Positions 10,868 to 55,712 of a DNA stretch of 64,000 bases are shown piece by piece. Source of the DNA: Streptomyces sp. WP-1 (GTDB lineage: Bacteria > Actinomycetota > Actinomycetes > Streptomycetales > Streptomycetaceae); the NCBI RefSeq assembly GCF_030450125.1, contig NZ_CP123923.1:2852001-2916000 (forward strand). The letters run 5' to 3'. How positions within the stretch are numbered: the first letter of the stretch is position 1; each line of letters opens with the position of its first letter. Below the pieces are notes generated by a model. That model did not search any database. It had not been told where the DNA came from and was given only the letters and a program-made list of their open reading frames with translations. The position numbers were made by a program, and so were the translations under genes.

Positions 10868-11287
10868 GTGACGTACTACGCGGACCTGACTCCGTACACC
10901 TACGGGTCACCCGAGCGGCCCGCCCTCAATGTAGGTTGGCTGTCGGCCGACGAACCCTACACAAGAGGCGTGGTTGCGGAATGTGTGGTCGACGCGCTGA
11001 AGGCGCTCTGCGCAACACGGGTCAATCAGATGCGAGGACTGCACTTCTGTGAGTTCTGCGACGCTTTCATGCCGCACGTCAAAGGCGGTGCAAATGGCGA
11101 GGAGGAGATCCTTCTCGGCTCTGCCGAAATACATTTCGGCGGCGACTCCGAAGTCGTGTACGCGGCTCCGAATCTCATCGTGCACTACGTGCTGGAGCAC
11201 TCCTACTGTCCACCGGAGGAGTTCTGTTCGGCTGCAGTAAATGCTGCCGGTATGGAGTGCGCCGACAGGCTGACGCTGCCAGAGTGA
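10868..11287 (+). CDS. DUF7919-type hypothetical protein
   Basis: 139 residues from GTG 10868, with AAAGGAAG as ribosome site. It begins TYYADLTPYTY, a hallmark start of a Streptomyces family of unknown function, and keeps the RGLHFCEFC di-cysteine segment, an AEIHFGG strand, and APNLIVHYVLEHSY-PPEEF near the end. Cys pairs suggest a small metal or structural site. It is intact and has its own terminator despite sitting between two IS relics. Codon use is less GC-biased than the backbone, so it may have been acquired. Confidence 0.7.
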   Translation: MTYYADLTPYTYGSPERPALNVGWLSADEPYTRGVVAECVVDALKALCATRVNQMRGLHFCEFCDAFMPHVKGGANGEEEILLGSAEIHFGGDSEVVYAAPNLIVHYVLEHSYCPPEEFCSAAVNAAGMECADRLTLPE

Positions 11288-41912: not shown

Positions 41913-42308
41913 ATGCTTTCCCGCCTGTTTGCCCCCAAGGTCAAGGTCAGCGCCCACTGCGACCTGCCCTGCGGCGTGTACGACCCGGCCCAGGCCCGCA
42001 TCGAGGCGGAGTCGGTCAAGGCCGTCCAGGAGAAGATGGCCGGCAACGACGACCCCCACTTCCAGGCCCGCGCCACCATCATCAAGGAACAGCGCGCGGA
42101 GCTCGCGAAGCACCACGTCTCCGTCCTCTGGAGCGACTACTTCAAGGCCCCGCACTTCGAGAAGTACCCCGAGCTGCACCAGCTGGTCAACGACACCCTG
42201 AAGGCCCTCTCGGCCGCCAAGGGCTCCACTGACCCGGCGACGGGCCAGAAGGCGCTCGACTACATCGCCCAGATCGACAAGATCTTCTGGGAGACGAAGA
42301 AGGCTTGA
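41913..42308 (+). CDS. sodN: Nickel superoxide dismutase (SodN)
   Basis: 131 residues. A 14-residue propeptide (MLSRLFAPKVKVSA) is followed by the nickel hook HCDLPCGVYD, in which His15, Cys16 and Cys20 become His1, Cys2 and Cys6 of the mature enzyme after SodX cleavage. The four-helix remainder is complete and ends IFWETKKA. GAGGAAGGA is the ribosome site. Detoxifies superoxide in the cytoplasm; expression is nickel-dependent in streptomycetes. The final codons (ACG AAG AAG GCT TGA) have less typical wobble bases than the rest and appear to be supplied by the element integrated here. Confidence 0.96.
   Translation: MLSRLFAPKVKVSAHCDLPCGVYDPAQARIEAESVKAVQEKMAGNDDPHFQARATIIKEQRAELAKHHVSVLWSDYFKAPHFEKYPELHQLVNDTLKALSAAKGSTDPATGQKALDYIAQIDKIFWETKKA
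42290..42308. repeat. Left attachment-site copy (3' end of sodN)
   Basis: GGAGACGAAGAAGGCTTGA. The matching copy at 55205-55223 is GGAGACCAAGAAGGCCTGA: 17 of 19 bases are equal, and both differences are at wobble positions of the same codons (E-T-K-K-A-stop). The integrase remnant starts 8 bp further on. Confidence 0.7.
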
Positions 42309-42315
42309 TCTATGG

Positions 42316-42852
42316 CTAGGCGGTTTGACCTGCGGTTTCGCGGGCCGCATCGCCTACCTGTCCGCACCCGGTCCGCAGGCCGCCGAGAACGGCGTCCATG
42401 ACGGACCGGGTGCGGTCTTCTTCTCCCGGCCAGAGGTGCGCGTAGATCCGCAGCGTGATGACGGCCGACGCGTGGCCGAGGACGAGCTGGACCTGCTTGA
42501 CGCTCGCTCCGCCGGCGATGAGGGCGGAGGCGTAGAAGTGGCGCAGGTCGTGGGTCACCATGTGCGGCAGTTCGACGATCTTACGGCCTTCCCGCTCGGC
42601 GGCCCCGTTCTCGGCCGTCTGGAGCGTCTTGCGAGCCCCGTTCCACTCGGTCTTCCACCGCCGGTAATTGAGCGGTTCCCCCTCCTCCATGGTGAACAGC
42701 CACTCCTTGGAGGGCCGTGCGGCGAGATGCTCGAGGAGCGCGTCGGTGACGACCTCGCCGACCGGGACCGTGCGCCGCGACTTGGCGGTCTTCGGCGGCC
42801 CGATCTTCCCCGACTGGAGACGCTGGCGCTCGACCCTGCGAAAGGCGGCCAA
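42316..42852 (-). pseudogene. Tyrosine recombinase (integrase), C-terminal remnant
   Basis: About 178 codons matching the catalytic C-terminus of a phage-type integrase: the beta-hairpin Lys in GPPKTAKSRRTVPV, then THDLRHFYASALIAGGASVKQVQLVLGHAS and IYAHLWPGEED with the Tyr nucleophile. The upstream part, including the core- and arm-binding domains and the first catalytic Arg, is missing; similarity stops at about 42850, where an unrelated plus-strand remnant begins. The gene's 3' end lies 8 bp from the att copy, the usual position for an element integrase. Confidence 0.85.
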
Positions 42853-43284
42853 GGAACTCGCCTACGCCTCCAGTGAGCCGGGCGGGCTCGCCGTCGCCCT
42901 GCTCTTCGCCGCCGTGCACCTGGCCCGCGCCGCCGCCAAGTGGCACGAGCGGCGCGGCCACGAGCAGCAGGCCGCAAGCGGCCGAGGAAGCCTTCCGCCA
43001 CCTGCAGGTGGCCTATCAGGAGGCCGCCGCACCGGTCTTGGCGGACCTCGCCCGCCGCGCGCCACAACCACCAGCCACTTCGAGCAGGACCTTCGCACGG
43101 TCATCCCCGACCACGCCGACAGCGTCCTGGCCGATCCCGCCTGGCCCGCCCTGACCACTACCCTCGCCCGCGCCGAAACCGCCGGCCACAACACCCGGCA
43201 CCTCTTGGCCGAGGTCGCAGCCCAAAGGGAACTCGACAGCGCCAAGCATCCCGCCGAGGTCCTCAACTGGCGCATCACCGTACT
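42840..43284 (+). pseudogene. Frameshifted remnant of a mobilisation/relaxase-like protein
   Basis: One frame gives KAAKELAYASSEPGGLAVALL followed by AAVHLARAAAKWHERRGHEQQA. It then changes frame to AAEEAFRHLQVAYQEAAAPVLADLARRAP, and changes back to HFEQDLRTVIPDHADSVLADP and AETAGHNTRHLLAEVAAQRELD, ending at HPAEVLNWRI. The helical Ala-rich pattern with the closing VL-WRI resembles the C-terminus of Streptomyces mobilisation (relaxase) proteins as I remember them; this is not certain. Two compensating frameshifts lie between about 42965 and 43075. There is no start region, so it is a fragment. Confidence 0.5.
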
Positions 43285-43453
43285 ACCGAACAGGCGATCT
43301 CAAGCAGCACGCAGGCGTCACGCAAGCAGCGCTGCTGCCGCTCCAATCGCCGCTGCACATGGATCGGCAGTTCCCTCTACCGAAAGCGCCCGCAGCCAGA
43401 CGCACGGAGGGCAGGGCTTCCGTCGCTGATCGCTTCCCACCTCGTGAACGTAC
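43285..43453. other. Gene-free stretch in the element
   Basis: 169 bp of degenerate sequence between the mobilisation remnant and the 3' end of the kinase gene. I see no hairpin strong enough to call a terminator. Confidence 0.3.
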
Positions 43454-43981
43454 TCAGTTCCCGTCTCCGGCGGCAGTGATCGCTGCAAGAAGTGCGTCGA
43501 GGTCTCCGTTGTACACGATCACCTCCTCGTCCTCGGCGGGGACGTCGAAGCGGGCGAAGAAGTCGTCGAGGGCTTCGGGGGTGACAGTCAGCGCGTTGGC
43601 GTCCTCGCGCTGGTTGCGTTCGGCCAAGCGCCGCAGCAGCTCGGCGCGGTCGGCGGGGAGGTAGACGACCAGCGGATGGCCGCCCGCCTCGCGGGCGGCC
43701 ATCCGCCAGGCGTCCCGCTCGGTGCGGCGCCACAGACCGTGGTCCAGGACGACGGCGTTCCCGGCCTCGATCTCCTTGATGAACCGCGTGCGGATCGCTT
43801 CGACGACGGGCCGCTCGCGCTCGAAGTAGGTGTGCTCGGGGTAGTCCACGCCGTAGCGGCCGTGGAGGCGGTGGACTTCCTCGTCGACGGACAGCCGGGT
43901 GAAGCCGTGGCCGGCCAGGGTTTGTGCGACGGTGGTCTTCCCCGAGCCGGTCAGGCCGGCCAAGAGAACGGCGAGGGGCAC
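43454..43981 (-). CDS. P-loop kinase (AAA_33 / small-molecule phosphotransferase type)
   Basis: 175 residues from GTG 43981, chosen for the GGAAGGGA ribosome site; an ATG at 44017 would add 12 residues. Walker A is GLTGSGKT at residues 9-16. A DEEVHRLHGRYGVDYP segment, VVLDHGLWRRTERDAWRM and the lid RLAERNQREDANALTV complete the layout of AAA_33 kinases, related to zeta toxins, gluconate kinases and chloramphenicol phosphotransferase. The substrate may be a sugar or nucleotide made by the upstream glycosyltransferase genes. Last gene of the minus-strand operon. Confidence 0.75.
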   Translation of the reverse strand: MPLAVLLAGLTGSGKTTVAQTLAGHGFTRLSVDEEVHRLHGRYGVDYPEHTYFERERPVVEAIRTRFIKEIEAGNAVVLDHGLWRRTERDAWRMAAREAGGHPLVVYLPADRAELLRRLAERNQREDANALTVTPEALDDFFARFDVPAEDEEVIVYNGDLDALLAAITAAGDGN

Positions 43982-44028
43982 GTGGTCATCCCTTCCGCGA
44001 CGAGCTTGCGCGAGCATCGGGCATTGTC

Positions 44029-44895
44029 TCAGTCCTGGCTGGTGTGCGCGTAGGGCCGCCAGGTGGTGAAGATGCCGCGGGCCTCCGCGGGCCAGCCGAA
44101 GGGCAGTCGATCCAGGCTCACGCGGCGGAACGCGAACCGGGGATCACTAATGTTGATCACGCCGCCGTGCCGGCCGACATGGGCCAGCAGGCGGCCGGCC
44201 TCGTCACGGACGGCCGGGGTGCGTTCCTCCCAGGTGCCGGAAGAGAAGTGCTGGACCCGGCGGCGGAGATCGTCAAGAACGCCGGCGCGCCACTTGAAGT
44301 GGTGGACCGCGCAGATGCGATCCGCATCGGGCCTGTGGCCGGAAGCCCGGTGGTTGCCGGAAGCCACGGCCACGTCGTGGCGGGCGAGGACGATCTTTCG
44401 GGGGTCGCCGTGCAGAAGCCGGTGGGTGAGGTGGCCGCCCAAAGGATAGGCGAGGTCGAGCCCGCCTTCGGGCCGCCAGCCGGTCAGGCGTCCGCTCGCG
44501 GCGACCCGGTCGAGCATCAGCCCGCCCACCACACGGTGCCCGGACTTGTCGGCCTGGGTGATCACTTCGGCGAGCGGGGCGGGGTATTGCTGGAACTCAT
44601 CGGCGTCGGCGAGCAGGTGCCAGCCGGGCCCGGCCCGGTGCCGCAGGGCGTTTCGGAGCTGGGTGTTGGTGTGCTCGTGCCACGGGCCGGTGCTGGTGCC
44701 GGTGGGGATGATGCCCAGCTCGCGGACGGCAGCCTGGAGCTCGTGCCGCCGGAGGTCGGGGACGTGGTCGGGAAAGTGGAAGGCGATGAGGAACCGCTCG
44801 ACGCCCAGCCAACGGTAGTGGCGGACCCAGGCGGCCAGCAGGGGCGGCTCGACGGGGCCAACGACGGCGATCAGCGCGGGAGGCGTACTCAGCAT
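44029..44895 (-). CDS. GT2-like (DUF-type) glycosyltransferase
   Basis: 288 residues. It begins LIAVVGPVEPPLLAAWVRHYRWLGVERFLIAFHF and carries a metal-binding LLADADEFQQYP (D-x-D-E) that matches the acidic nucleotide-sugar site of family 2/92-like transferases (Glyco_tranf_2_4). Three conserved His residues occur in the second half (LTHRLLHGDP, AVHHFKW). Its ATG follows the stop of the upstream GT4-like gene with no gap (TGAATG). Acceptor unknown; no membrane segments, so it is probably cytoplasmic. Confidence 0.75.
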   Translation of the reverse strand: MLSTPPALIAVVGPVEPPLLAAWVRHYRWLGVERFLIAFHFPDHVPDLRRHELQAAVRELGIIPTGTSTGPWHEHTNTQLRNALRHRAGPGWHLLADADEFQQYPAPLAEVITQADKSGHRVVGGLMLDRVAASGRLTGWRPEGGLDLAYPLGGHLTHRLLHGDPRKIVLARHDVAVASGNHRASGHRPDADRICAVHHFKWRAGVLDDLRRRVQHFSSGTWEERTPAVRDEAGRLLAHVGRHGGVINISDPRFAFRRVSLDRLPFGWPAEARGIFTTWRPYAHTSQD

Positions 44896-46125
44896 TCAGG
44901 ACTCCTTCGAGCGCAAGGAGACGAAGGTGTGGGTGAGGAAGTCGGCCTGCCCGGCGGCCGACCGCATGCCCAGCAGCCCCGGGGCGTCGGGGCCAGGCAG
45001 CGGGAGCGGCCGGCGGATGACGGTGTGCAGGGCTTCGGCGAGGGCAGCCGGGTCGCCCACGGGGAACGCCAGGGCCCAGGGTTGGCCGCGCAGGCGAGCG
45101 GTGAGGGCACCATCGTGGTCGGAGACGATCAGAGGGACGCCGAGGCGGGCAGTGTCCATGACGAGCCCGGATTCCTTGCCGGTCCCGGCGTGGCGGGTGA
45201 CCAGGGCGGCGTCTGCGGCGGCGTACACCAGCCGGAGCACGGCTTCGCTGACCGGGCCTGGCACGGTGTGCACACGCAGGCTGGGCAGGTCCCGCCACCG
45301 CTGCAGGACGGCTTTGTCGAGCGGGGAGCCGGTGACCACGAGGTGCAGGGGCTCCTTCAGCCGGGCCAGGGCGGCATCGATGACGGCGATGTCCTTGTAG
45401 GGCCACCAGCCGCCCACCAGGCAGACCACGGCCTCGGCGGCCGGGATGTCGAATGCGGCCCGGCCGCCCTCGCGTTCAGCAGCGGACAGACGGCGGCCGT
45501 CATCGACCGCGAAGCAGCCGACAACCGCCGGCAGATCGGGGAAGGCCGCGGCGAACTGGTCGGCGACGGCGCGCGTCGGATACACCGCGACCACCCGCTC
45601 CTCGCCTCCGCGGGCAAGCTGGCCGAGCAGCCGTACGGCGGCGTCCTCTGTGGTGACCGCCTCGTGGACGAACCGCAGGTGCGGCTGGCCGCCCAGGAGT
45701 GCGGCGGCGCCGTGCAGAGCCTCGCTCGCGGTCAGAATCACCACCGCGTCGGCGTCAGGCTCCAACCGGCGGGCGGACCGCAGCGCAGCCCCCTCGGTGA
45801 AGCAGCGGGCGAGGAGCGTGACTTGGTGCGATAGCCGCCGCATGCGACGGGGCCAGCGGCGCGACCGCAACAGACACTGCCCGGCCGCGGAGAGCCCGGC
45901 AGTCAGCCGGGCTGCGGCCAGCAGGACGCCCGCAGTCCACCCGGACGGGCCGGTGACCAGCTGCGCGCCCGCTTCGCGCAGGGCGCGGGCCGCCTCGGTG
46001 GCGATCCCGTGCGGGGCGATGACCAGGCTGCCTGGCCGGGCCTGGGCGAGGGCCACCAGCGTGCGCTGGTGGTGCCCGCCCAGGCGGTTCGCGTACGGCT
46101 CGATGAGCACGAGCGGACCGGTCAT
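44896..46125 (-). CDS. GT4-like glycosyltransferase
   Basis: 409 residues. GT-B layout: an N-terminal domain starting VLIEPYANRLGGHHQRTL, and a C-terminal nucleotide-binding domain with CLVGGWWPYKDIAVIDAAL (strand after the interdomain linker) and HAGTGKESGLVMDTARLGVPLIVSDHDGAL (the E-x7-E-like GT4 motif region). Its ATG overlaps the upstream stop by 4 bp. Donor and acceptor are unknown. Confidence 0.8.
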   Translation of the reverse strand: MTGPLVLIEPYANRLGGHHQRTLVALAQARPGSLVIAPHGIATEAARALREAGAQLVTGPSGWTAGVLLAAARLTAGLSAAGQCLLRSRRWPRRMRRLSHQVTLLARCFTEGAALRSARRLEPDADAVVILTASEALHGAAALLGGQPHLRFVHEAVTTEDAAVRLLGQLARGGEERVVAVYPTRAVADQFAAAFPDLPAVVGCFAVDDGRRLSAAEREGGRAAFDIPAAEAVVCLVGGWWPYKDIAVIDAALARLKEPLHLVVTGSPLDKAVLQRWRDLPSLRVHTVPGPVSEAVLRLVYAAADAALVTRHAGTGKESGLVMDTARLGVPLIVSDHDGALTARLRGQPWALAFPVGDPAALAEALHTVIRRPLPLPGPDAPGLLGMRSAAGQADFLTHTFVSLRSKES

Positions 46126-46826
46126 CCGGACACCGCCTGGTCGCCATGGGCGAAGGTGAACCTCTCCCGCAGCCAGGCGGGCTCGTTGAGGTGGTCGAAC
46201 CGCTGCGACTCCCGGGCGGCTTCGCCTGCGAAAGCGACGCCTTCCCGGGCCCCTGAGGCGGCGAAGGAGGCGAACTCACCGCTATGGCTCGCCGTCCACG
46301 CCTGAATCCGCTGGTGGGCGTCGCCGTCGGCCATCCCGTACTCGCTGCCGCGGGCCAGCATCGCGCACTCACGGAAGCCCGCCTTCCAAGCGTGGAACGG
46401 GCTCTGGTTGAACCGAGTGATCCCGGCGGTGCGCTGGGCGAACTCGATCCGGCCGGGCAGAGCGGCGAGCACGTCGACGGCCTCGCCCATCTCCCGCAGG
46501 GCACTGCGGCGGATCAGTTTCAGCCCACCGTAGCCGTAGGTCAGGCCGTTGACCGGGTTGACCGCCCGCCACACGCGCATGGACACCCCCTCGTCCAGCG
46601 GCTCGACGGCGGCCACATCGAAGTCGGGGTCGATGGCGAAGTCGCCGTCGGCGAGGAAGAACTGCTCGCGGTCGACGACCTCGGCGCACAGCCGGTAGGC
46701 CCTCCGCATCCCGTGCACGCCGTGCAGGCGCTTGACCGTGCCGCCGAGCGTCCGCTGGAGCCGGGAGTGCAGGGAGTTGGCCATCGGCTCGTCGTACGAC
46801 AGGAGCACCGCGTCGAAGCCGGTCAC
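46122..46826 (-). CDS. GT-A-fold glycosyltransferase-like protein
   Basis: 234 residues from GTG 46826, overlapping the upstream stop by 4 bp. The sequence begins FDAVLLSYDEPMANSLHSRL and has FLADGDFAIDPDFDV (a DGD in place of DxD) and YGYGGLKLIRRSAL, consistent with a GT-A nucleotide-sugar-binding core of a type seen in bacterial proteins that compare glycan-related neighbours. The annotation as a transferase is inference from DGD and context; it has no membrane segment. Confidence 0.6.
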   Translation of the reverse strand: MTGFDAVLLSYDEPMANSLHSRLQRTLGGTVKRLHGVHGMRRAYRLCAEVVDREQFFLADGDFAIDPDFDVAAVEPLDEGVSMRVWRAVNPVNGLTYGYGGLKLIRRSALREMGEAVDVLAALPGRIEFAQRTAGITRFNQSPFHAWKAGFRECAMLARGSEYGMADGDAHQRIQAWTASHSGEFASFAASGAREGVAFAGEAARESQRFDHLNEPAWLRERFTFAHGDQAVSG

Positions 46827-47980
46827 GAGATGGCCTCCAGGTAGCGAGTGGCGACCAGGGCGGGGGCGAAGTCGGCGGTGGAGGCGTGGGCCCGCTTGGC
46901 GTGCACGACGTGGAACTCGTCGTCGGTGGCAAGGCGTTCGGCCAGAGCGACGGCCTCAGCCGGGGTGGTGAAGCACAGCTCCGGGTCGATGTGCTCGGTG
47001 AGCCAGCCCAACTTCGGTGAGATGACCGGCAGCCCCATGCCCTGGCAGTCGATCACGCTCATCGACCAGGGGCAGCCGGGCCGGAAGGGGGCCACGCCGA
47101 AGCGGGCGCCGGCCAGCAGGTTCTTGTAGCGGACGCGGTCGCCCCGGTCGGAGACGACCTGGACGTGCGGCAGGGCGGCGAGTTGGTCACGCATCTTCTC
47201 CGGGCTGTCGTCCAGGCCCTTGCGCTCGGCCCGGCGCCGGCCGAACAGGTCCATCACCCGCAGCCGGACGGTGCCGGAGGCGACCAGGTCGCGGGCCAGG
47301 TCCACGAACTGCTCGGTGCCGTAGTGGGCGTACAGCCGGTGGTTGTAGACACCGATCGCGCCTCCAGCGCCGCCCGGGGGCCTGTCGGCGGGGTCACGGA
47401 CCAGGCGCTCGTCGCGCGGCGCGGGCACGATCCGCAACCGGTCGCCCAGGTCCACGGTCATCCGGGCGGCGGCGGCCGACACCCAGGATGCGGCCGTGGA
47501 GGAGTGGACCATCACCCGGTCGCAGGCGGCCAGACCGGCGGCGAACGCCAGCAACACCGGCCTACCCAGCCCCGCGTCGTTCAGGGACGGGTCCAGCAGG
47601 AGCTGCCCGCCGTCCGTGAAGGAGAAAGGCAGGTAGTGGCAGTATCCGGCGAGCAAGGCATCCGATCCGGCCTCCAGCAGGGCCGTGCGGATCGCCGGAG
47701 CCTCCTCGACCTGGTTGGCCACCACCACATCCGGCTGCTCGGCCCGGATCAGCGCCACCAGCTCGTCGATGTCCGCCGAGAACCGGGCCCGATACTTGGT
47801 CCCCGGCACCCTGGTCCGATGGAAGCCGCAGCGGGCGTCCCCAGCCGCAGCCGGGGCGGCGACGGTCACCTCGGCCCCGGCGTCGACCAGGGCCGGGGCC
47901 AGCAGGTCCGCGAAGATCCAGCCCGAATCCGCCGACAGCCGGTCGGGATTGGAGATGTTCAGCAGGTACAGCACGCGCAT
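46823..47980 (-). CDS. GT4-like glycosyltransferase, first gene of the operon
   Basis: 385 residues with ribosome site GGGAGG. GT-B type: RVLYLLNISNPDRLSADSGWIFADLLAPAL at the start, IGVYNHRLYAHYGTEQFVDLA at the domain boundary, and GVAPFRPGCPWSMSVIDCQGMGLPVISPKLG in the nucleotide-binding part. The typical GT4 glutamate pair is weak, so it may be a diverged member. It leads a five-gene operon (four sugar-transfer proteins plus the kinase) divergent from the XRE regulator across 148 bp. Confidence 0.75.
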   Translation of the reverse strand: MRVLYLLNISNPDRLSADSGWIFADLLAPALVDAGAEVTVAAPAAAGDARCGFHRTRVPGTKYRARFSADIDELVALIRAEQPDVVVANQVEEAPAIRTALLEAGSDALLAGYCHYLPFSFTDGGQLLLDPSLNDAGLGRPVLLAFAAGLAACDRVMVHSSTAASWVSAAAARMTVDLGDRLRIVPAPRDERLVRDPADRPPGGAGGAIGVYNHRLYAHYGTEQFVDLARDLVASGTVRLRVMDLFGRRRAERKGLDDSPEKMRDQLAALPHVQVVSDRGDRVRYKNLLAGARFGVAPFRPGCPWSMSVIDCQGMGLPVISPKLGWLTEHIDPELCFTTPAEAVALAERLATDDEFHVVHAKRAHASTADFAPALVATRYLEAIS

Positions 47981-48128
47981 GATGCGTCGCCTCCCTCATC
48001 TGCCCGGACGGATCGATCCGGGTCGGTGAGGGAAGGAAAGCGGTGACGTGAGCCGTGACGGGATGATGAACTTGGATCACTCACGGTTCATTCATGCTCA
48101 CCAACAAGTGACGCGGGGCGGGGCTTCG

Positions 48129-49103
48129 ATGGACGCGCACAGCGAGGAGATCACCGTCGAGCAGGCGGCAGAGGACTTCGCGGCCGAGGTGGCCAGGTGG
48201 CGGGAGGTACGCGGCATGTCCAAGCGGGCGTTAGCCCAGGCCATGGGCTTCGACCCGTCCTACGTCAGCCATATGGAGTCCGGCCGCACCAAGCCCAGCG
48301 AGGAGTTCGCCCGGCTCGCGGACGAGGCCCTGAACGCCGGGAAGGCGATCTGGCGGCGCTGGTGCGACTACGAGCAGGCCCGCACCCGTAGCAGGCGCCC
48401 GCCCGCACCACCGCCGGCCCCGCGCAGGCACGAGCAGCCGTACGCCACCGGCTCCGCCCTCGTGGTCGAACACGACGCCGCCCGGCTCCAGTACGACGGC
48501 CATTCGTATAGGCTCACCATGCGTCGGTTGCTGCGGAACACCGGCACTGAGCCGGTGACCCGCTACCTGATCCGCATCTCCGTCGACCGCTATCCCGGCG
48601 ACCCGGAGCGGTCCAACGCACACTACCGGGCCAACCCGCTGACCTGGGGCGAACTCGACCTCACCGCGACGTGCCGGGGCGAGGCAATGCGTTGGCAGGC
48701 CAAACACGACCGGGACGCCTTCAAAGAAGTCTGGCTGCTGTTCGACAACGAACACGGCCGCTTCCCCCTCTACCCCGGCGACTCCGTGTGGATCGAGTAC
48801 GCCTACACCGTCGGCGACGACAAGTGGGGCAACTGGTTCCAGCGCGCCGTCCGCCTGCCGACCGAGCAGCTCGAAGTACAGCTCGCCTTCCCCGCCGACC
48901 TCGACCCGGTGCTCTGGGGCACCGAGACCTCGATGACCGCCGAAGCCTCCCCCCTGCGGACCCCGCCCGTCCGCAGCGACCACGGTGGCCTACGGCAATT
49001 CACGTGGATCACGGCCACACCCGCCCTGCACGCTCGGTACCGTCTTGAGTGGCGGTTCCGGGCACGGCCCGAACACGAGACGGATCAAGGGGAGTTCAGG
49101 TGA
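48129..49103 (+). CDS. XRE-type regulator with large beta-rich C-terminal domain
   Basis: 324 residues from ATG 48129; an earlier in-frame GTG at 48048 and an ATG at 48060 are possible. Helix-turn-helix at about 17-72 (RGMSKRALAQAMGFDPSYVSHMESGRTKPS). After a Pro-rich linker comes a domain of about 200 residues rich in strands (RLLRNTGTEPVTRYLIRISVDRYPGDP, WIEYAYTVGDDKWGNWFQRAV), not a family I can name. It is probably a ligand-sensing or interaction domain. It heads the XRE-deformylase-NUDIX operon and faces the glycosyltransferase operon, so it is the likely regulator of both. Confidence 0.8.
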   Translation: MDAHSEEITVEQAAEDFAAEVARWREVRGMSKRALAQAMGFDPSYVSHMESGRTKPSEEFARLADEALNAGKAIWRRWCDYEQARTRSRRPPAPPPAPRRHEQPYATGSALVVEHDAARLQYDGHSYRLTMRRLLRNTGTEPVTRYLIRISVDRYPGDPERSNAHYRANPLTWGELDLTATCRGEAMRWQAKHDRDAFKEVWLLFDNEHGRFPLYPGDSVWIEYAYTVGDDKWGNWFQRAVRLPTEQLEVQLAFPADLDPVLWGTETSMTAEASPLRTPPVRSDHGGLRQFTWITATPALHARYRLEWRFRARPEHETDQGEFR

Positions 49104-49663
49104 TTGACGTGCGGCCCAGCCAGCAGATGCGAGACCTCGGAGTCGTCCAGCACGGCGCCGGCATCCTCGCCGAACCGACCCGCGCCTTCGCCCTGCCCGC
49201 CGAGCGCGACGAGGCCGAGCGCATCACCGACGAGTTGTTCGCCGCCATGGAGCGGGTCGGCCAGGTCCACCCCTTCGCCAAGGGCATGGGCATCGCCGCC
49301 CCGCAGATCGGCATCGGCCGCGCCGCCGCCGTCGTCCAGCCGCCCGGCGACGGACCCTCCGTCATCCTGCTCAACCCGAAGATCACCGACTGCTCCGACG
49401 AGACGGACGAGCAGTACGAGGGCTGCCTCAGCTTCTTCGACGTCCGCGGCCTCGTACCCCGCCCCCTGAAGATCACCGTCGAGACCACGGTCATGACCGG
49501 CGAGACCGTCACCACCGTGTACGAACGTGGCCTCGCCCGCCTCATCCACCACGAGATCGACCACCTCGACGGCCTGCTCTATACCGCCCGCATGCGGACC
49601 GGCGTCGAGCCCATCCCCGTAGAGGAGTACCGGCAGACGGGCCGGGCCTGGGCCTACGAGTAG
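49100..49663 (+). CDS. def: Peptide deformylase carried on the integrative element
   Basis: 187 residues from GTG 49100, coupled to the regulator gene by GTGA. All three Def motifs are intact: G62-MGIAAPQ69, E107-GCLS111 and H151-EIDH155, so Cys109, His151 and His155 hold the metal and Glu152 is catalytic. It removes the N-formyl group from nascent proteins. A genome normally has a housekeeping def elsewhere, so this one is accessory. It may give resistance to deformylase inhibitors, act on a formylated small molecule or peptide, or rescue translation; nothing in the sequence chooses. Confidence 0.92.
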   Translation: MIDVRPSQQMRDLGVVQHGAGILAEPTRAFALPAERDEAERITDELFAAMERVGQVHPFAKGMGIAAPQIGIGRAAAVVQPPGDGPSVILLNPKITDCSDETDEQYEGCLSFFDVRGLVPRPLKITVETTVMTGETVTTVYERGLARLIHHEIDHLDGLLYTARMRTGVEPIPVEEYRQTGRAWAYE

Positions 49664-49699
49664 GCCGCTGCCATCAACCCGGCCGGCGAAGGGATCACC

Positions 49700-50200
49700 G
49701 TGGCTCAGCCGCCAACCGATGACCAGCCCAAGACGCTCAAGCCTGCCCTGGAATCCATGACCCTGCTGGTCGCCGCCGTCATCGTCCACGACAAGGCCAC
49801 CAACCGCGTGGTCCTCATCCAGCGCAGCGACCAGGCCAAATTCGCCAAGGGCATGTGGGACCTCCCGGTCGGCAAGAGCGAACCCGGCGAGCCGATCACT
49901 GCGACGGCCGTCCGCGAGCTGTACGAAGAGACCGGTCTGACCGTTAAGCCGGAAGTGCTCAAGGTCGCCCACATCATCCACGGCGCCTGGGGCGTGGAGG
50001 CCCCAAACGGCTTCCTCACGGTCGTGTTCGTCGCCCACGAGTGGACCGGCAAGCCAGAGAACCGCGAACCGCGCAAGCACGCCCAAGTCCGCTGGGTCGA
50101 CGCCAAGGCCATCCCCAAGGAATTCGTGGAGACCACTGCCAGTGCTCTCCATCGCTACCTGGCCGGCGGGCCCCAAGTGTCCCTGGATGGCTGGGAGTGA
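49700..50200 (+). CDS. NUDIX hydrolase
   Basis: 166 residues from GTG 49700 (GAAGGGA ribosome site). The Nudix box is complete at residues 58-80: GKSEPGEPITATAVRELYEETGL. The preceding FAKGMWDLPVG and later VVFVAHEWTG fit an ADP-ribose/NDP-sugar or (d)NTP pyrophosphatase. With four sugar-transfer proteins next door, hydrolysis of a nucleotide sugar is an attractive but unproven role. It starts 36 bp after def, same operon. Confidence 0.9.
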   Translation: MAQPPTDDQPKTLKPALESMTLLVAAVIVHDKATNRVVLIQRSDQAKFAKGMWDLPVGKSEPGEPITATAVRELYEETGLTVKPEVLKVAHIIHGAWGVEAPNGFLTVVFVAHEWTGKPENREPRKHAQVRWVDAKAIPKEFVETTASALHRYLAGGPQVSLDGWE

Positions 50201-50360
50201 AGACCTGTCCGGACAGATCACTGGGGGCTGAAGCTACTGCCTGAGCAGCCGAGCACAGCTGCACCGATTGGTAACCGCCGCCGCGATTCGGACACTTTCC
50301 CCGTCCCGCAACTGCATGCTGGCGTGATTGGCACTTTCATTGCGGTGATCAACCCCATAC

Positions 50361-50402
50361 CGTGAGTCACGCTTTTTGCCTTGGCTGCGCTCGTGTGTCA
50401 CG
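50361..50402. promoter_or_regulatory. Paired 11-bp palindromes upstream of the four-gene operon
   Basis: CGTGAGTCACG at 50361-50371 and CGTGTGTCACG at 50392-50402, 31 bp apart centre to centre (about three helical turns, same face of DNA), 36 bp before the GTG at 50438. This is an operator-like arrangement; the regulator is unknown. Confidence 0.45.
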
Positions 50403-50437
50403 CCAAGGTGCGGTGGGGGAACGGGGAGGGATACAAC

Positions 50438-50959
50438 GTGGATCCGCTGGCGTTTCCGGTGCTTGCCGGAACGGTGCTGACCGAAGCTGTCAGGTTCCTG
50501 TTTGATCGCGCGAGTGCCGTGCTCGACAGGCGGGCCGGGCGTGTCCCGGCCGAAGAGCCGGAAAGCGTGGCAGGACGGCCGAGCGCCCTGCAGGTGCGAG
50601 CCGGAGAACTTACAGACGCGCGTGTCGAGCGCATCAGCCAGGCCCAAGGCGCCCTTCGGGTCTATCTGTCCCGCCCAGACCTATTGCAGGGGGAGGACGA
50701 GGGGCTTCGTGACCTCCTCGGCCAGTTGCGTCGAGACCTCGAAGAGGTCTACGGATGCAGCCTCCCGTTCGGGGACGAGCAGCGCCCTCAGCCCAGTGCG
50801 GAAGTGTCTCAGCACGCAGACGAGATCTCGGGTCAGCAGGTCGGCATCCGTGCGCAGGGAATGACCGCCAAGGGCCGGGCCCGGGTTGTACAGACCAGCA
50901 GGACCATCACTGAGACTGGCGAGCAGGTCGGCATGCACTTCGACGGACCAATCGGCTGA
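50438..50959 (+). CDS. Unknown 173-residue protein, first gene of a four-gene operon
   Basis: GTG 50438 with GGGGAGGG upstream. Residues 1-30 (DPLAFPVLAGTVLTEAVRFLFDRASAVL) form an amphipathic or membrane-peripheral helix. The middle is charged and helical (RVERISQAQGALRVYLSRPDLL). The last 45 residues are a Gly/Val/Gln-rich strand-like tail (GQQVGIRAQGMTAKGRARVV). Small proteins with such Gly-rich repetitive ends often precede STAND-type NTPase genes in Streptomyces; I offer this as resemblance only. It ends 13 bp before the large gene. Confidence 0.65.
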   Translation: MDPLAFPVLAGTVLTEAVRFLFDRASAVLDRRAGRVPAEEPESVAGRPSALQVRAGELTDARVERISQAQGALRVYLSRPDLLQGEDEGLRDLLGQLRRDLEEVYGCSLPFGDEQRPQPSAEVSQHADEISGQQVGIRAQGMTAKGRARVVQTSRTITETGEQVGMHFDGPIG

Positions 50960-50972
50960 GGCTGACGCATCC

Positions 50973-53828
50973 ATGAGCTTCGAGAACGACGACGCCCGGC
51001 AAGGCACACAAGAGCCCGATCCGTATGGGCGATTCGATGGGCAACCGTCATCGCCATCTGAAGCCGGAGATTCGCTCCCTCCGTCACCAAGCGATCCGAC
51101 AGCAGATGCTGCGGATCATCACTGGCGTCCAGCGACGAACCCGCCCACCAGCGCAGAGCAACTCGTAGCCTCCGGTGACGGTGCCCCGACCCTTGAAAAG
51201 CCCCAGCCTCCCTCCGATGACGCTATTCCGTCAGTCCAGGACGGGGCAGCCCTCGCGTCTGAGGGAACGCACGAGGTCTCGCGTACGGATGGCTTCGCGC
51301 CGTATGAGGGCCCAGCGAAGGAGGCGGAGGCACCACCAGACACGCCCTCTCCGAGCGGTGAGACAGAGACAACCGAGGGCTCGGAGTTACAGCACCGAGT
51401 CTTACACGAAGGGCACCGCGCCAACCACGACGAAGGGCGTGATGGAGCAGCGGTGGGCGGGGGATCGGGCTACACGCCTTCGGCAGACGACGCCCAATCA
51501 CAAGGCAAGTCGGCCGTTGTCGACGGTGCCGCTCCTCGTGACACGCCCTCTGCCACGAGCACGCCGCCGCAGGACCCCCCGGGCTCCGCGTCCCAGCGAC
51601 ATACGCCGGATCCAGCCACGGTAGAAGCCTTCCACCAGGCGGCACTCCTTCAGCGCACTGTGGTCAACAACGGCGAGATGATCGCCGTGAAAAACGTATT
51701 CGAGCAGACACTCGACACTCACGCACCGATTTCTGCTGGGTACCTCAACGTCGTCAGCGAAGTGTACGCCGAACTGTATGTGAAGCAGGACGGCGACTAC
51801 TTCGCAAAGACCGAGCGCAGCACCTTCACCGATGCCTACTCGCTGCTCGGACCGGATGGGTCCGTTCTGGTCATCAGTCGGCTCCCCGGAACGAGTCGTA
51901 ACATCACTGCATACGCCCTCATGGCCCGCCTCATGGAGAGCGGCCTCATCAAGGAGGTCTGGCCGCTCTCGTTCGGAAGCGCTTCGGTCTTTCCAGTCAA
52001 GCGTCTCCCACGCGAGCACCACCGTGGCTACGTACTCGAACTCCCCCCCGATGAGGATGGTTTCGAGGTCCACGACTCTTTCGGCGCGAATCTGGAAAAG
52101 GTGCGGGAGTACCTCGGTCCGCGCCATAGTCGTCTCATCGTGATCACTACTCCCGAGCAGTGGCGACGCATCGGTCGCGGCGCTCCGGAGGGTGTAGCCC
52201 CTGACCTCGGTACGGCGCGGCCGACCGATGTCGCGGAGCGATGGCTGCGGGCTGAAGAGCCAGATTTTCCAGTGACCTCCTGGCTCAGGCATCGGAAGAT
52301 GAAAGCCCTCCTGGAGGGGCAGAGTCCGACCGAGGTTCTGCGCATTGTGGAACTCATGCGGGAGGCTCGACGGACCGCCTTGCGTGCCATCGCTGAAGCC
52401 TCCGTTGGCCTGGATGCATTGCAGCTTCGTCGCGCCGAAGCGGTGGCGGATACCGATGAGGCCATTGACGAGCAAGTCAACGAGGTGGCGGCCGCCCGCG
52501 ACAACTGGGAGGACGACCTCCATGACTGGCATGAGAAGTCGGAAAGAACCAGTTTCCAGCGCAACTTTCTGGTAACCGCAGCCGTATTACGCGGGGCGCC
52601 TGTCGGTCACATTTACGCCAAGGCTGCCGATCTCACTAAATCCCTTGAAGGGGACAACATCGAGGTCACAGGACAGAAAGCACCAGGCGTAATCGCCATG
52701 ACCCGGGCTATCCATGCGGAGCGCACAAAGGAAGGCGTGCTCAGCTTCCGGCGCCCGCACTGGGACGACGCCGCTCTGGAATACTTCTGGGCTGACCGCC
52801 CGCTCGCGCGCGTACCGTTCCTGCAGTGGCTGGCGCATGCCCCCCTGGATGAACCGAAGCTGGCCATGGAAAGCGTCGACCTAGATTATAGGCGGGCCCT
52901 AGCCGAGAGAATTGGAGATTTCGCCGTCCGCTGGGCAGTTCGCCACCGCCGACAGGAACCGCTGGAGGAGATTGTCACAACATGGCACAAGAATCCCAAA
53001 AAGGGACTGTGGCCTCTGGCCACAACCCTCTTAGATGACGCGGCCGTTCACCCAGCCAGCGCGCCGTACATCCACACGATGTTGCTGGCCTGGGCAAGCC
53101 GCAAGACAGACGCCGCTCTACCCTTGGCAGTCGTATCTGTCTGCGCTGGAAAGTTCGGCCGGGCCCACACCGGGAAGGCGCTGCGGCGCCTTCGGCATGC
53201 CGCCGAGTCAGAGCATGCCGAAGTGGCCGAGGCGTTGCAAGACGCCGTGCGTACCCTCTGGGCAGATGCTTCCGTGCGGCCATTGCTGTTCAAGGACATC
53301 GTCGACTGGTGTGGAAACGACAAGATCAAGGACACCGTCGGCCGCCAGACATTCGCCGCATTAGCGACAGTCGCAGGACCAAGCAACCTCGACATTCCAC
53401 TCATCCTCGACAATGCTAGCCACGGAGACGACGAGGAATTCCACCCATCGCCAGAGGACCTAGTTAAAGGCTGGCGAACCCTGTTGAGGGAAGGCCCTGG
53501 GCCGACCGGGACTAGGCAGGTAGACAAGGCGGTATTCCTTTGGCTGGACGCCGCCTTGCGGCACCGCCCTTTGAAAGACCTCATCCTGCATTCCCTGCGG
53601 AAGGCCGTTGACATACGAGGCACAGAGGAAGGGCGAGTCCTGCGAGAGACGCTCCGCGCCTGCGCACACGGCTGGGTGCAAGGCAAGGACCGCCCCTTCT
53701 CCAAGGAAAGGGAGGCAGTCCGGCAGGAGCTGAGCGCTCTCCTCGACGAAGACCTGCACGCCGCGGTGCAGGAGCAAGAGCAGGAGGAGGCCACCGGGGC
53801 CAGCACCAGGGGGACCGACACCGCGTGA
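50973..53828 (+). CDS. Large protein with disordered N-terminus and eroded P-loop (inactive-STAND-like)
   Basis: 951 residues from ATG 50973. Residues 1 to about 210 are low-complexity (Pro, Ser, Asp, Glu, Thr), surely disordered. At about 225-395 a P-loop-like Rossmann core is visible: VLVISRLPGTSRNIT (residues 298-312) aligns with a Walker A loop but has Ser308-Arg309-Asn310 in place of Gly-Lys-Thr. GYVLELPPDED (352-362) occupies the Walker B position and RLIVITT (387-393) the sensor strand. The rest (400-951) is all-helical, with repeat-like segments. It looks like a STAND/AAA-type protein that has lost ATP hydrolysis. Function unknown; it is the centre of the operon. Confidence 0.75.
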   Translation: MSFENDDARQGTQEPDPYGRFDGQPSSPSEAGDSLPPSPSDPTADAADHHWRPATNPPTSAEQLVASGDGAPTLEKPQPPSDDAIPSVQDGAALASEGTHEVSRTDGFAPYEGPAKEAEAPPDTPSPSGETETTEGSELQHRVLHEGHRANHDEGRDGAAVGGGSGYTPSADDAQSQGKSAVVDGAAPRDTPSATSTPPQDPPGSASQRHTPDPATVEAFHQAALLQRTVVNNGEMIAVKNVFEQTLDTHAPISAGYLNVVSEVYAELYVKQDGDYFAKTERSTFTDAYSLLGPDGSVLVISRLPGTSRNITAYALMARLMESGLIKEVWPLSFGSASVFPVKRLPREHHRGYVLELPPDEDGFEVHDSFGANLEKVREYLGPRHSRLIVITTPEQWRRIGRGAPEGVAPDLGTARPTDVAERWLRAEEPDFPVTSWLRHRKMKALLEGQSPTEVLRIVELMREARRTALRAIAEASVGLDALQLRRAEAVADTDEAIDEQVNEVAAARDNWEDDLHDWHEKSERTSFQRNFLVTAAVLRGAPVGHIYAKAADLTKSLEGDNIEVTGQKAPGVIAMTRAIHAERTKEGVLSFRRPHWDDAALEYFWADRPLARVPFLQWLAHAPLDEPKLAMESVDLDYRRALAERIGDFAVRWAVRHRRQEPLEEIVTTWHKNPKKGLWPLATTLLDDAAVHPASAPYIHTMLLAWASRKTDAALPLAVVSVCAGKFGRAHTGKALRRLRHAAESEHAEVAEALQDAVRTLWADASVRPLLFKDIVDWCGNDKIKDTVGRQTFAALATVAGPSNLDIPLILDNASHGDDEEFHPSPEDLVKGWRTLLREGPGPTGTRQVDKAVFLWLDAALRHRPLKDLILHSLRKAVDIRGTEEGRVLRETLRACAHGWVQGKDRPFSKEREAVRQELSALLDEDLHAAVQEQEQEEATGASTRGTDTA

Positions 53829-54685
53829 GGCGCTTCATTCCCTGGCCACGACGAAGCACGCCCGCAGAAGAACCGCCGGCCCCACCTCCCACTTGGACTT
53901 ATACGTTCGTCGACCGGCTCGCCAGCAGTGAGCCGACGCTGCGGTTCACCGCGCAAGTTCATGTGACATGGAGGGCGGGACAAGGCGGTGGCACCAGTAG
54001 CCCAGATGACGCAGCCCGTCTCGTCCGGGAGATTGTGGACGACGCCGCAGCGTCATGCGATGTCCTGCGGCGCGACGTTGCGGAGTACGACATCAACGCT
54101 GCCTTGCGGGCGCAACTGCCGCTGAGTGGATTCGGGGTTGAAGTTCTTCATAGTTATGTCCGCCTCACGATCGATGACTCTACTCAGAAGGCAGCCCTCC
54201 TGGCGGAGCGAATGCGCCAGGGCTACGCCCTCGAAGAGGCTCGTCGGCGACGAGAGCAGGAGCGAGAAGATACCCAACGACGCGTCGAGCACTCTCATGA
54301 GGAGGACCAGCTCCGCCGCGAGTACGAGCTGGACGCGTTAGCCCGCAGGCAAGCGCGAGCACGTGCGGAATTCCTCCGCACGGAGATCCTCACCGACCCT
54401 GCTTCAGCTCGTCTTTACACGCTGCTGGAATGCTACACGGAGCACTGGCCGCGGCTGGGTGCGCCTCCTGCCGGGACGAGTCTTCCGGACTTGGTGCGCG
54501 AAGTTCAGCAGTGGCAACCGCAGGCACGGTGGGTGGTGGTAGCCCAACTGCTCCATGGCTTCGTGGCTGGGCTCACGGAGGAAGGTCGCAAGGAGTTGCT
54601 GACCATCCTGGCAAAGGCCGTCAAAGTGCACGGCGACGAAAAAACAGCCCAAGCCCTGATAAACGCCGCAGGGGAGCAGGAATGA
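53825..54685 (+). CDS. SPFH-like or coiled-coil partner protein
   Basis: 286 residues from GTG 53825, overlapping the large gene by GTGA. A Pro-rich start, then a compact alpha/beta domain (about 20-115: FTAQVHVTWRAG, PDDAARLVREIVDDAAASCDVLRRDVAEYDINAALRA, EVLHSYVRLTIDD) that resembles an SPFH/band-7 core. A charged coiled coil follows (about 118-185, RRRREQEREDTQRRVEHSHEEDQLRREYELDAL) and then a helical C-terminal part. SPFH assignment is by eye only. Probably an oligomerising scaffold for the eroded-P-loop protein. Confidence 0.65.
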   Translation: MRRFIPWPRRSTPAEEPPAPPPTWTYTFVDRLASSEPTLRFTAQVHVTWRAGQGGGTSSPDDAARLVREIVDDAAASCDVLRRDVAEYDINAALRAQLPLSGFGVEVLHSYVRLTIDDSTQKAALLAERMRQGYALEEARRRREQEREDTQRRVEHSHEEDQLRREYELDALARRQARARAEFLRTEILTDPASARLYTLLECYTEHWPRLGAPPAGTSLPDLVREVQQWQPQARWVVVAQLLHGFVAGLTEEGRKELLTILAKAVKVHGDEKTAQALINAAGEQE

Positions 54686-54900
54686 GATTAATCCTGTGGC
54701 GATGCGTCCTGGACCCGGCCACAAGTCTTCTGGCCCGCCGCATCCGCGCCCAGTCCCACGGCCGTTTGTCGTACGACGCTGCCTGGCGGCTCGCCCGTGT
54801 TATCCGTTCCCCCGACGAGATGGTCTACCGACTCCACGGCCACAGACTTGAAGCAGAGCCGTGGGCGAGCCCGGACGGGTTACCAGCCGATGGACCCTAA
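54682..54900 (+). CDS. Small unknown protein, last gene of the four-gene operon
   Basis: 72 residues, ATG overlapping the previous stop (ATGA). Basic N-terminal half (LARRIRAQSHGRLSYDAAWRLARVIRSP), short acidic end. No family recognised. Coupling by overlap and the terminator directly behind it argue that it is real and belongs to the operon; it might be a regulator or immunity-type protein, which is speculation. Confidence 0.55.
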   Translation: MRLILWRCVLDPATSLLARRIRAQSHGRLSYDAAWRLARVIRSPDEMVYRLHGHRLEAEPWASPDGLPADGP

Positions 54901-54909
54901 CAGCTTCGA

Positions 54910-54940
54910 TGCCATGCGCCATCCGGCTCGGCGCATGGCA
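54910..54940 (+). terminator. Terminator of the four-gene operon
   Basis: Perfect 11-bp arms TGCCATGCGCC (54910-54920) and GGCGCATGGCA (54930-54940), 9-nt loop, 10 bp after the last stop. Confidence 0.75.
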
Positions 54941-55145
54941 CCCCCTTGCTGCAGGCCGGCCAACTCCTCAGGCCGTGACAACCAGGACGCCACGGCGGTG
55001 CGGCAGCGTCGCTCGCCTTCCTTCAACCTGATCGGCTACACCATCACACCGAGGGTCCCTCCCAGGTTGCAGCAGGGCAGTCCGCACACAGTCCGCAGAA
55101 CACCCGATCGCGACCGTCGCACCCCATCGCCACCAATCACCAAAA

Positions 55146-55196
55146 GGCCAGGTCAGCGACGTGCAGCGAGCATCGCTGCAGGTCACCGACCTGGCC
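55146..55196. repeat. Nested inverted repeat next to the right att copy
   Basis: Outer arms GGCCAGGTC (55146-55154) and GACCTGGCC (55188-55196); inner arms TGCAGCGA (55162-55169) and TCGCTGCA (55173-55180). It lies 8 bp from the att copy. It could be recombinase/excisionase arm sites or a terminator. Confidence 0.5.
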
Positions 55197-55204
55197 GATT
55201 ACTA

Positions 55205-55223
55205 GGAGACCAAGAAGGCCTGA
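55205..55223. repeat. Right attachment-site copy (displaced original sodN 3' end)
   Basis: GGAGACCAAGAAGGCCTGA. It encodes E-T-K-K-A-stop with GC-rich wobble bases typical of backbone genes. It matches 17/19 with the end of sodN at 42290-42308. Confidence 0.7.
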
Positions 55224-55241
55224 CCCTTCCTCTCCCGCGGC

Positions 55242-55278
55242 AAGGGGGCCCCGTCGGCGTGTCCGGCGGGGTCCCCTT
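55242..55278 (+). terminator. Probable original sodN terminator
   Basis: AAGGGGGCCCCGTCGG pairs with CCGGCGGGGTCCCCTT over a 5-nt loop; the two non-Watson-Crick positions are G-U pairs in RNA. It lies 19 bp after the duplicated sodN stop codon, the position expected of that gene's own terminator. Confidence 0.65.
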
Positions 55279-55352
55279 GTGTGTGCGTGGGCCGCCCGGC
55301 ATCCTGTTCCGCCCCGGATCGACGCACCAGCCGCCAGGAGCGTGCCCGCCCC

Positions 55353-55712
55353 ATGACCGACGCCCCCGCCCGCGTCCGCGAGCTCAGTCTCTACCGCCGG
55401 TACTTCGATCTCGTCGCGGCGGGCGCCAAGGCCGTCGAGGTGCGGGTGAAGTATCCGCACCTCGCCGACCTCGCGCCGGGCGACACCATCCGCTTCCGCG
55501 TCAAGGGCACCGACGAGACCTGCGACGTGCGGGTCGATCGGGTCACCGCGTACCCGGACTTCGAGTCCCTTCTCGACGGCGAGGGCTCAGCGCACGTCAA
55601 CCCCACCGCCACCCGCTCCCAGCAGCTCGCCGACATCCGGGCCATCTACCCACCCGAGAAGGAAGCGCTCGGCGCACTCGCCATCGGGATCGAGCGGGTC
55701 GCTGATCAGTAG
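55353..55712 (+). CDS. ASCH-domain protein
   Basis: 119 residues; CAGGAG precedes the ATG. ELSLYRRYFDLVAAGAKAVEVRVKYPHLADLAPGDTIRF is the ASCH/YqfB beta-barrel signature (the G-K-x-x-E-x-R element). ASCH domains are related to PUA and are thought to bind RNA or modified nucleosides. First backbone gene right of the element. Confidence 0.88.
   Translation: MTDAPARVRELSLYRRYFDLVAAGAKAVEVRVKYPHLADLAPGDTIRFRVKGTDETCDVRVDRVTAYPDFESLLDGEGSAHVNPTATRSQQLADIRAIYPPEKEALGALAIGIERVADQ

Follow-up and report, generated by a model that had tools for sequence, protein, structure and literature searches.

Integrative elements of actinobacteria

The described systems that come closest to the locus discussed here are integrative mobilizable elements (IMEs) located at the 3' ends of protein genes, actinomycete integrative and conjugative elements (AICEs), and PAISt of Streptomyces turgidiscabies. 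As far as the accessible text of the sources goes, ATE-1, located at guaA, is the sole canonical actinobacterial IME in a 2017 review (PMC5704250), and the sites of AICEs are mostly tRNA genes, with 14 protein-gene sites counted and rlmN named (PMC9513070). Here, we discuss a stretch of 64,000 nucleotides from Streptomyces sp. WP-1 (contig NZ_CP123923.1, positions 2,852,001 to 2,916,000; hereafter, the window), in which positions 42290-55223 very probably represent a decayed integrative mobilizable element from a family that is widespread in Streptomyces and whose tyrosine integrase would recombine a site on the element with the last bases of sodN, the gene for nickel superoxide dismutase.

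Compared with these systems on the basis of the text available, the sodN elements have in common with ATE-1-type IMEs a tyrosine integrase, an own relaxase, an apparent lack of an own mating apparatus and a target at the 3' end of a conserved protein-coding gene, but differ in the choice of sodN, in the Streptomyces host, in a DUF3631 ATPase, and in having a PF03432 relaxase with a MobC-like partner instead of MobV (PMC5704250). With AICEs, they share a tyrosine integrase, a DUF3631/RepAM-type ATPase, a NUDIX gene, and accretion and decay at one site; in contrast to these, they lack TraB/FtsK and carry a relaxase together with a MobC-like gene (PMC3218068, PMC9513070). PAISt resembles them in its protein-gene 3' end and in modules bounded by gene-end repeats, but has an 8-bp palindromic core, a size of 674 kb and bacA as target; furthermore, its integration and excision have been shown experimentally, whereas the sodN elements are known here from sequence alone (PMC4057263). 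No paper naming sodN as an attachment site was found in the open-access literature as far as its text was available, with a mention in Table S5 of PMC9513070 not excluded.

The attachment site at the 3' end of sodN

The last 19 bp of sodN, GGAGACGAAGAAGGCTTGA (42290-42308), recur in near-identical form as GGAGACCAAGAAGGCCTGA (55205-55223). A pattern combining the two copies, allowing up to three mismatches, is matched only at these two places in the window, with 0.05 matches expected by chance, and the 7.6-Mb genome holds a single third match, with two mismatches and at a distance of 3.6 Mb. The recurring tail, a tyrosine-recombinase remnant just inside the left copy and a hairpin after the right copy had been proposed in an earlier, sequence-only reading of the window, and all three proved real (Table 1); a further hairpin, of which that reading had taken no note, follows the left copy inside the integrase frame.

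A chance or gene-conversion duplication flanking ordinary variable genes would be in keeping with the interval between sodN and an AraC-like gene, which is variable across the genus. The low chance expectation and the fact that both copies recur as a pair in many species, with the inner ends and the integrase preserved, have, however, already refuted this explanation, to which we assign practically no probability. A tRNA gene as target was ruled out, since none was found in the window.

In some empty sites, that is, in genomes without an element left-end signal, an inverted repeat like GACCGGCGATCGGTGCACCATCGCAGGTC lies ~10-40 bp 3' of the sodN stop codon, and a similar one, GACCTGCGAT..ATCGCAGGGTC, is present in some element left ends ~20 bp past the stop; the GACCGGCGATCGGTGCACCATCGCAGGTC-like repeat is perhaps a recombinase-binding site or a structure of the 3' untranslated region.

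The integrase family and its linkage to sodN

The full-length integrase of a relative (G101; G and L numbers denote genomes and loci) served as query against 199 Streptomyces genomes. Among the matches listed, full-length relatives of 85-100% identity occur in 13 genomes; these are followed by fragments from the same clade and then by full-length matches of no more than 47% identity. In 12 of the 13 cases sodN adjoins the integrase, and in 11 of the 13 genomes a second repeat copy is found on the same contig, 13.7-20.6 kb away, the exceptions being G099, with its second copy on another contig, and G025, without a credible one. The arrangement that the sequence-only reading had anticipated in other Streptomyces, an integrase 3' of sodN and a distant second copy, is, hence, a recurrent one. 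Residues R186, H301, R304, H327 and Y337, which we take to be catalytic, are invariant in 11 aligned full-length integrases. The target is nearly ubiquitous, with a sodN match in 196 of the 199 genomes (two of them weak), and its protein end reads FWETKKA in most of 127 relatives, occupied or not, a few ending in KQA, KNA, KKG or KQG.

A second collection, based on genome contigs, comprised 80 of 132 loci, 67 with at least 77% and 13 with at most 48% integrase identity. At 62 of the 67 loci, sodN lies within 71 bp of the integrase gene; at none of the 13 was it found in the DNA examined. One of the 67 loci belongs to Actinacidiphila (L302) and one is labelled Microtetraspora (L290), the rest being from Streptomyces. 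A search of 60 genomes of the order at E<=1e-60 detected the integrase in 5 of 45 Streptomyces genomes, counting that of the window (one match is a 68% fragment in G419), and in 0 of 15 of other genera.

Since phage tyrosine integrases are related (best listed match, 34% identity over 93%), a prophage or phage remnant with sodN as attB could be considered. Yet the 2078 phage records that gave a match all stay below 60% integrase identity, the elements carry relaxase and MobC-like genes, and no phage structural gene appeared in the Pfam matches of the scanned core and cargo representatives, not every cargo gene having been scanned. A phage origin is, thus, regarded as exceedingly unlikely.

Several observations concern loci beyond the typical arrangement. 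Two element left ends that are not located at a complete sodN, at L133, position 1098 (G185), and at L301, position 10668 (S. kebangsaanensis), are each preceded by a short sodN 3' fragment ~20 bp longer than the att repeat. Among 12 loci with the next most similar integrases (42-48% identity), the integrase gene ends 108-116 bp from the stop codon of a gene we take to be YchF-like in six (L312, L314, L315, L318, L320, L321), the encoded protein ending in MQDGDVVEFRFNV, and at L310 it ends 39 bp from a presumably mmsA-like gene (positions ~11045-11260 in all seven). A second copy of the gene end could not be made out convincingly in the sequence examined at these loci; possibly, they represent a wider integrase clade targeting protein-gene ends.

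Element ends and gene content

The inner right end of the window element is conserved throughout most of the family (Table 1), as compared with at most 53% identity for 2000 random 60-mers of the window. Together with the linkage of the integrase clade to sodN, and with three genomes in which sodN runs directly into sequence like that from 55224 onward, this upholds the central proposal of the sequence-only reading that an element uses the 3' end of sodN.

Complete members measure 13.7-20.6 kb and are arranged in the order integrase, XRE regulator, 64-aa excisionase-like HTH_17 protein, DUF3631 ATPase, MobC-like protein, relaxase and variable cargo. All five families from XRE to relaxase are present together in 11 of the 13 genomes; of the other two, G101 has MobC and relaxase alone, and G099 is broken across contigs. 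Pfam support comes from one representative per family, that of the relaxase lying above the cut-off (PF03432, E 1.1e-8) and those of XRE and MobC just below (MobC, 22.0 bits versus 23.2). Among the 22 stretches called as elements, some of them remnants, 14 contain a member of the relaxase family. Relatives of this relaxase occur in 305 plasmid records (72 from Streptomyces), with 40-46% identity in the 12 rows listed and one record in the 60-80% band. An FtsK/SpoIIIE domain was found in none of 12 elements (the window's included) and in none of the conserved families scanned; VirB4/VirD4 profiles were not run. Given an integrase and relaxase/MobC genes in the absence of FtsK/TraB, the complete members are classed, by gene content, as putative integrative mobilizable elements, whose transfer would be single-stranded and dependent on a helper.

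This classification has to be weighed against that as an AICE of the pSAM2/pMEA300 type with double-stranded transfer by TraB, to which the tyrosine integrase, the small HTH_17 protein, DUF3631 and, in many members, a NUDIX gene would conform. In PMC3218068, AICEs were identified with the help of DUF3631 as the domain of RepAM replication proteins, and Pif of pSAM2 offers a parallel for the NUDIX gene. DUF3631 is present in 10 of the 12 elements, being missing from G101 and from the window copy, so that one of the AICE replication proteins (RepSA, RepAM/DUF3631 or Prim-Pol) is there. TraB/FtsK, however, is not, in view of the consistently missing FtsK/SpoIIIE domain, and a relaxase with a MobC-like gene is carried instead; an assignment to the AICEs is, hence, considered very improbable.

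One divergent element (L131, G031) has similar non-element sequences following its left and right copies, and its left end between sodN and the integrase gene seems replaced.

Proposed exchange within the end of sodN

For integrative mobilizable elements at sodN, we propose that exchange occurs within the GGAGACSAAGAAGGC common to both sites, to the left of the last wobble position. On the chromosomal side, sodN would be retained up to the exchange point, and the remainder of the coding end would come from the element, which would also bring a new terminator-like hairpin; the old end of sodN would be shifted, along with its terminator, to attR.

Element left ends were surveyed in 119 genomes taken from the sodN match list down to G064, leaving out eight others that had been fetched for their integrase. 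A left-end signal is present in 58 of them (34 strong, 24 weak) and absent from 61. sodN ends in GCT-TGA in 18 of the 34 genomes with a strong left end, compared with 7 among the remaining 85 (P 3.6e-7 by Fisher's test, uncorrected for relatedness), a marker that is not diagnostic, since 16 of the 34 have GCC. In S. albospinus (G191), sodN ends in GCTTGA and the displaced right copy in GCGTAA, which places the exchange left of the last wobble base and argues that the element brings the gene end; the right flank of this genome matches the sequence directly 3' of sodN in G114 (81% over 90 bases) and in G161 (75% over 114). Repeat position 7 differs between attL and attR, among the pairs compared, only in the window (G/C) and in G015 (C/G), two informative pairs being too few to place the exact exchange point. 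The earlier suggestion that the left copy was supplied by the element is, therefore, sustained for the gene end, but the element need supply only the part right of the exchange point, comprising no less than the last wobble base plus the stop codon.

The right flank and the ancestral neighbour of sodN

In three genomes (G371, G386, G383), sodN runs into terminator-like sequence that is 77-79% identical to the window over the first 71-74 bases from 55205. At the sodN locus of G296, 33 bases of the window right flank are matched, and the match in G146 is its own right copy. No sequence covering the whole right flank, beyond the window's own, is among the matches listed from 392 genomes. The prediction that sodN of empty relatives would lead straight into about 55205-55280 holds for these first bases, but the DNA beyond the terminator is not simply ancestral.

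An AraC-like gene is situated directly 3' of sodN in several empty genomes and at ~63526 in the window. It was detected in 23 of the 61 genomes without left-end signal, in 11 of the 24 with a weak signal and in 5 of the 34 with a strong one; its distance from sodN is at most 300 bp in 9, 3 and 0 of these, respectively. It is taken as the ancestral neighbour of sodN.

The ASCH gene just right of attR is 76-82% identical to cargo genes of five sodN elements, and its three best DNA matches among those listed (87%; G372, G317, G212) are all at sodN loci. In G317, it lies between att copies, in G212 just after an integrase remnant and a NUDIX gene, and in G372 ~370 bp past sodN without an integrase match; G104 has an ASCH fragment behind an integrase remnant. 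These matches, together with the position of the AraC-like gene out at ~63526, make a remnant of an older sodN element right of attR likely. A third att copy before the AraC-like gene was not found in the window with the right-end profile. Other ASCH relatives occur elsewhere in genomes of the genus; the best 12 rows besides the window show 84-87% DNA identity.

Repeated integration and decay

A clear second element left end follows the right copy in eight genomes (G049, G007, G057, G052, G179, G015, G166, G142) and a weaker one in G164 and G099, which we read as the mark of repeated integration; tandem remnants would arise as further elements integrate at the rebuilt site.

A GCACCCGG..CCGGGTGC hairpin is found in 24 of 24 genomes of the weak class, a count that is partly circular given that the profile defining this class includes the hairpin, and in 14 of the 61 genomes without signal; it may be native in some of them. 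Pairing beyond the outer 8 bp is seen in 25 of 33 hairpins of the weak and no-signal genomes versus 18 of 43 element left ends (those with the motif among 47 aligned, the window's own included; P 0.005), and in 33 of 54 when all other sites are pooled (P 0.07), both values being uncorrected for relatedness. It is conceivable, if slightly on the doubtful side, that the 3' end of sodN has been repeatedly rewritten across Streptomyces, with its last bases, stop codon and terminator replaced, and that, after decay of the element, the host keeps the integrase-derived hairpin as the sodN terminator.

The window copy

Judged by its gene map (Table 1), the window copy is without half of the integrase gene and most mobilization genes, and an internal deletion has fused the C-terminal half of the integrase gene to the relaxase end. 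With its integrase halved in this way, it would be movable only with an integrase acting in trans. Int-less elements between att sites are termed cis-mobilizable elements (CIMEs), to which the window copy, with both att sites and no complete integrase, bears a likeness. Across 50-55 kb, where the overlapping 952-aa and 286-aa frames are located, the GC content is 62-65%, compared with ~69-75% on both sides. Defence as a function of the cargo was tried and rejected; for eight proteins, five of them from the window, PADLOC returned only weak P-loop and HTH matches.

Table 1. Coordinates of the sodN element, its genes and its flanks in the window
Feature	Position	Strand	Support
sodN, nickel superoxide dismutase, intact frame (..FWETKKA*)	41913..42308	+	PF09055, E 1.5e-43
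attL, left copy of 19-bp repeat	42290..42308	+	pattern match; position shared with relatives
Element left end, family-conserved	42309..42423	+	113 bits versus profile of sodN left ends (13 genomes with full-length integrase)
Tyrosine integrase remnant, C-terminal, ~residues 209-385 of 385	42316..42852	-	PF00589, E 4.2e-16; 89-95% identical to other sodN integrases; stop codon 7 bp right of left repeat copy
Terminator-like hairpin, putatively element-supplied to sodN	42363..42414	+	-43.8 kcal/mol, z -6.4; overlaps integrase codons on opposite strand
Relaxase remnant, C-terminal, abutting integrase remnant	42830..43303	+	57.5-68% identity to the relaxases from 11 further elements
Cargo, AAA_33 P-loop kinase-like protein	43454..44017	-	PF13671, E 8.8e-24
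Cargo, three glycosyltransferase-like genes	44029..47980	-	PF13704, PF13692, PF13439
Cargo gene amid the glycosyltransferase-like genes	46122-46826	-	no match in Pfam scan
Cargo, XRE-type HTH regulator	48129..49103	+	PF13560, E 3e-13
Cargo, peptide-deformylase-like protein	49100..49663	+	PF01327, E 2.1e-31
NUDIX gene of element family	49676..50200	+	PF00293; 82-88% identical to NUDIX genes of 10 other sodN elements
Cargo, 952-aa frame, no known family	50970..53828	+	no Pfam or PADLOC match
Cargo, 286-aa frame overlapping the 952-aa frame, no known family	53825..54685	+	no Pfam or PADLOC match
Inner right end of element (60 bp)	55145..55204	+	77-88% identity to 17 of the 19 further right ends compared
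attR, right copy with putatively displaced sodN end	55205..55223	+	pattern match; comparison with relatives
Terminator-like hairpin of sodN, putatively displaced	55236..55283	+	-40.8 kcal/mol, z -5.2; similar sequence directly 3' of sodN in G371, G386, G383
ASCH gene right of attR, probable older sodN-element remnant	55353..55712	+	PF04266 on longer frame 55281-55712

Weighing the evidence

A number of observations weigh against a mobilizable family devoted to sodN, in addition to the incomplete association of the GCT marker mentioned above. One full-length member is found in a different gene: the 13th integrase (G025, L119 1-1669) is situated in the 3' end of a gene for a solute-binding protein (PF00496). 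With a tail, TTCTGGGAGATCAAGAAGGCCTGA, that is nearly the same as the sodN tail, this gene end is likely a secondary attachment site; sodN of G025 also carries an element left end. (Near the right end of the G025 element, there are reading frames of two families in common with G166, presumably transposase pieces.) Five of the 67 loci are not directly beside an intact sodN, which is 4.3-6.4 kb away in L255, L264 and L294; L297 is at a contig end, and L301 has only a sodN 3' fragment. The right copies of G166 and G146 are without the conserved inner end (32% and 38% identity, respectively).

The remaining points concern the reach of the comparisons. Of the 1378 pairs formed by 53 loci, 1333 show greater similarity in their integrase DNA than in the adjacent host DNA (r 0.35), which is consistent with horizontal spread; since the host stretch contains intergenic DNA, slower change of the integrase gene could add to this contrast. 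In the left hairpin, compared over 47 left ends, one from the window and the others from 46 of the 67 loci, 13 of 22 pairs are invariant and one double change occurs in one sequence, so that selection on the RNA is neither proven nor excluded. The empty-site comparison draws on the sequences of other species, and the DNA between the attR terminator and the AraC-like gene appears not to be ancestral.

Implications for Streptomyces biology

The 3' end of sodN, a conserved stress gene in a genus of importance, would represent a hotspot at which integration is common and which has apparently not been described before. It appears to be served by a relaxase-bearing mobilizable family, in bacteria whose known integrative elements mostly use TraB. 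A conserved integrase whose target is short and lies in a gene of nearly every Streptomyces examined could become a tool for site-specific integration. Furthermore, the sodN elements would allow a direct test of whether a host terminator is replaced upon integration and whether the replacement is retained by the hosts.

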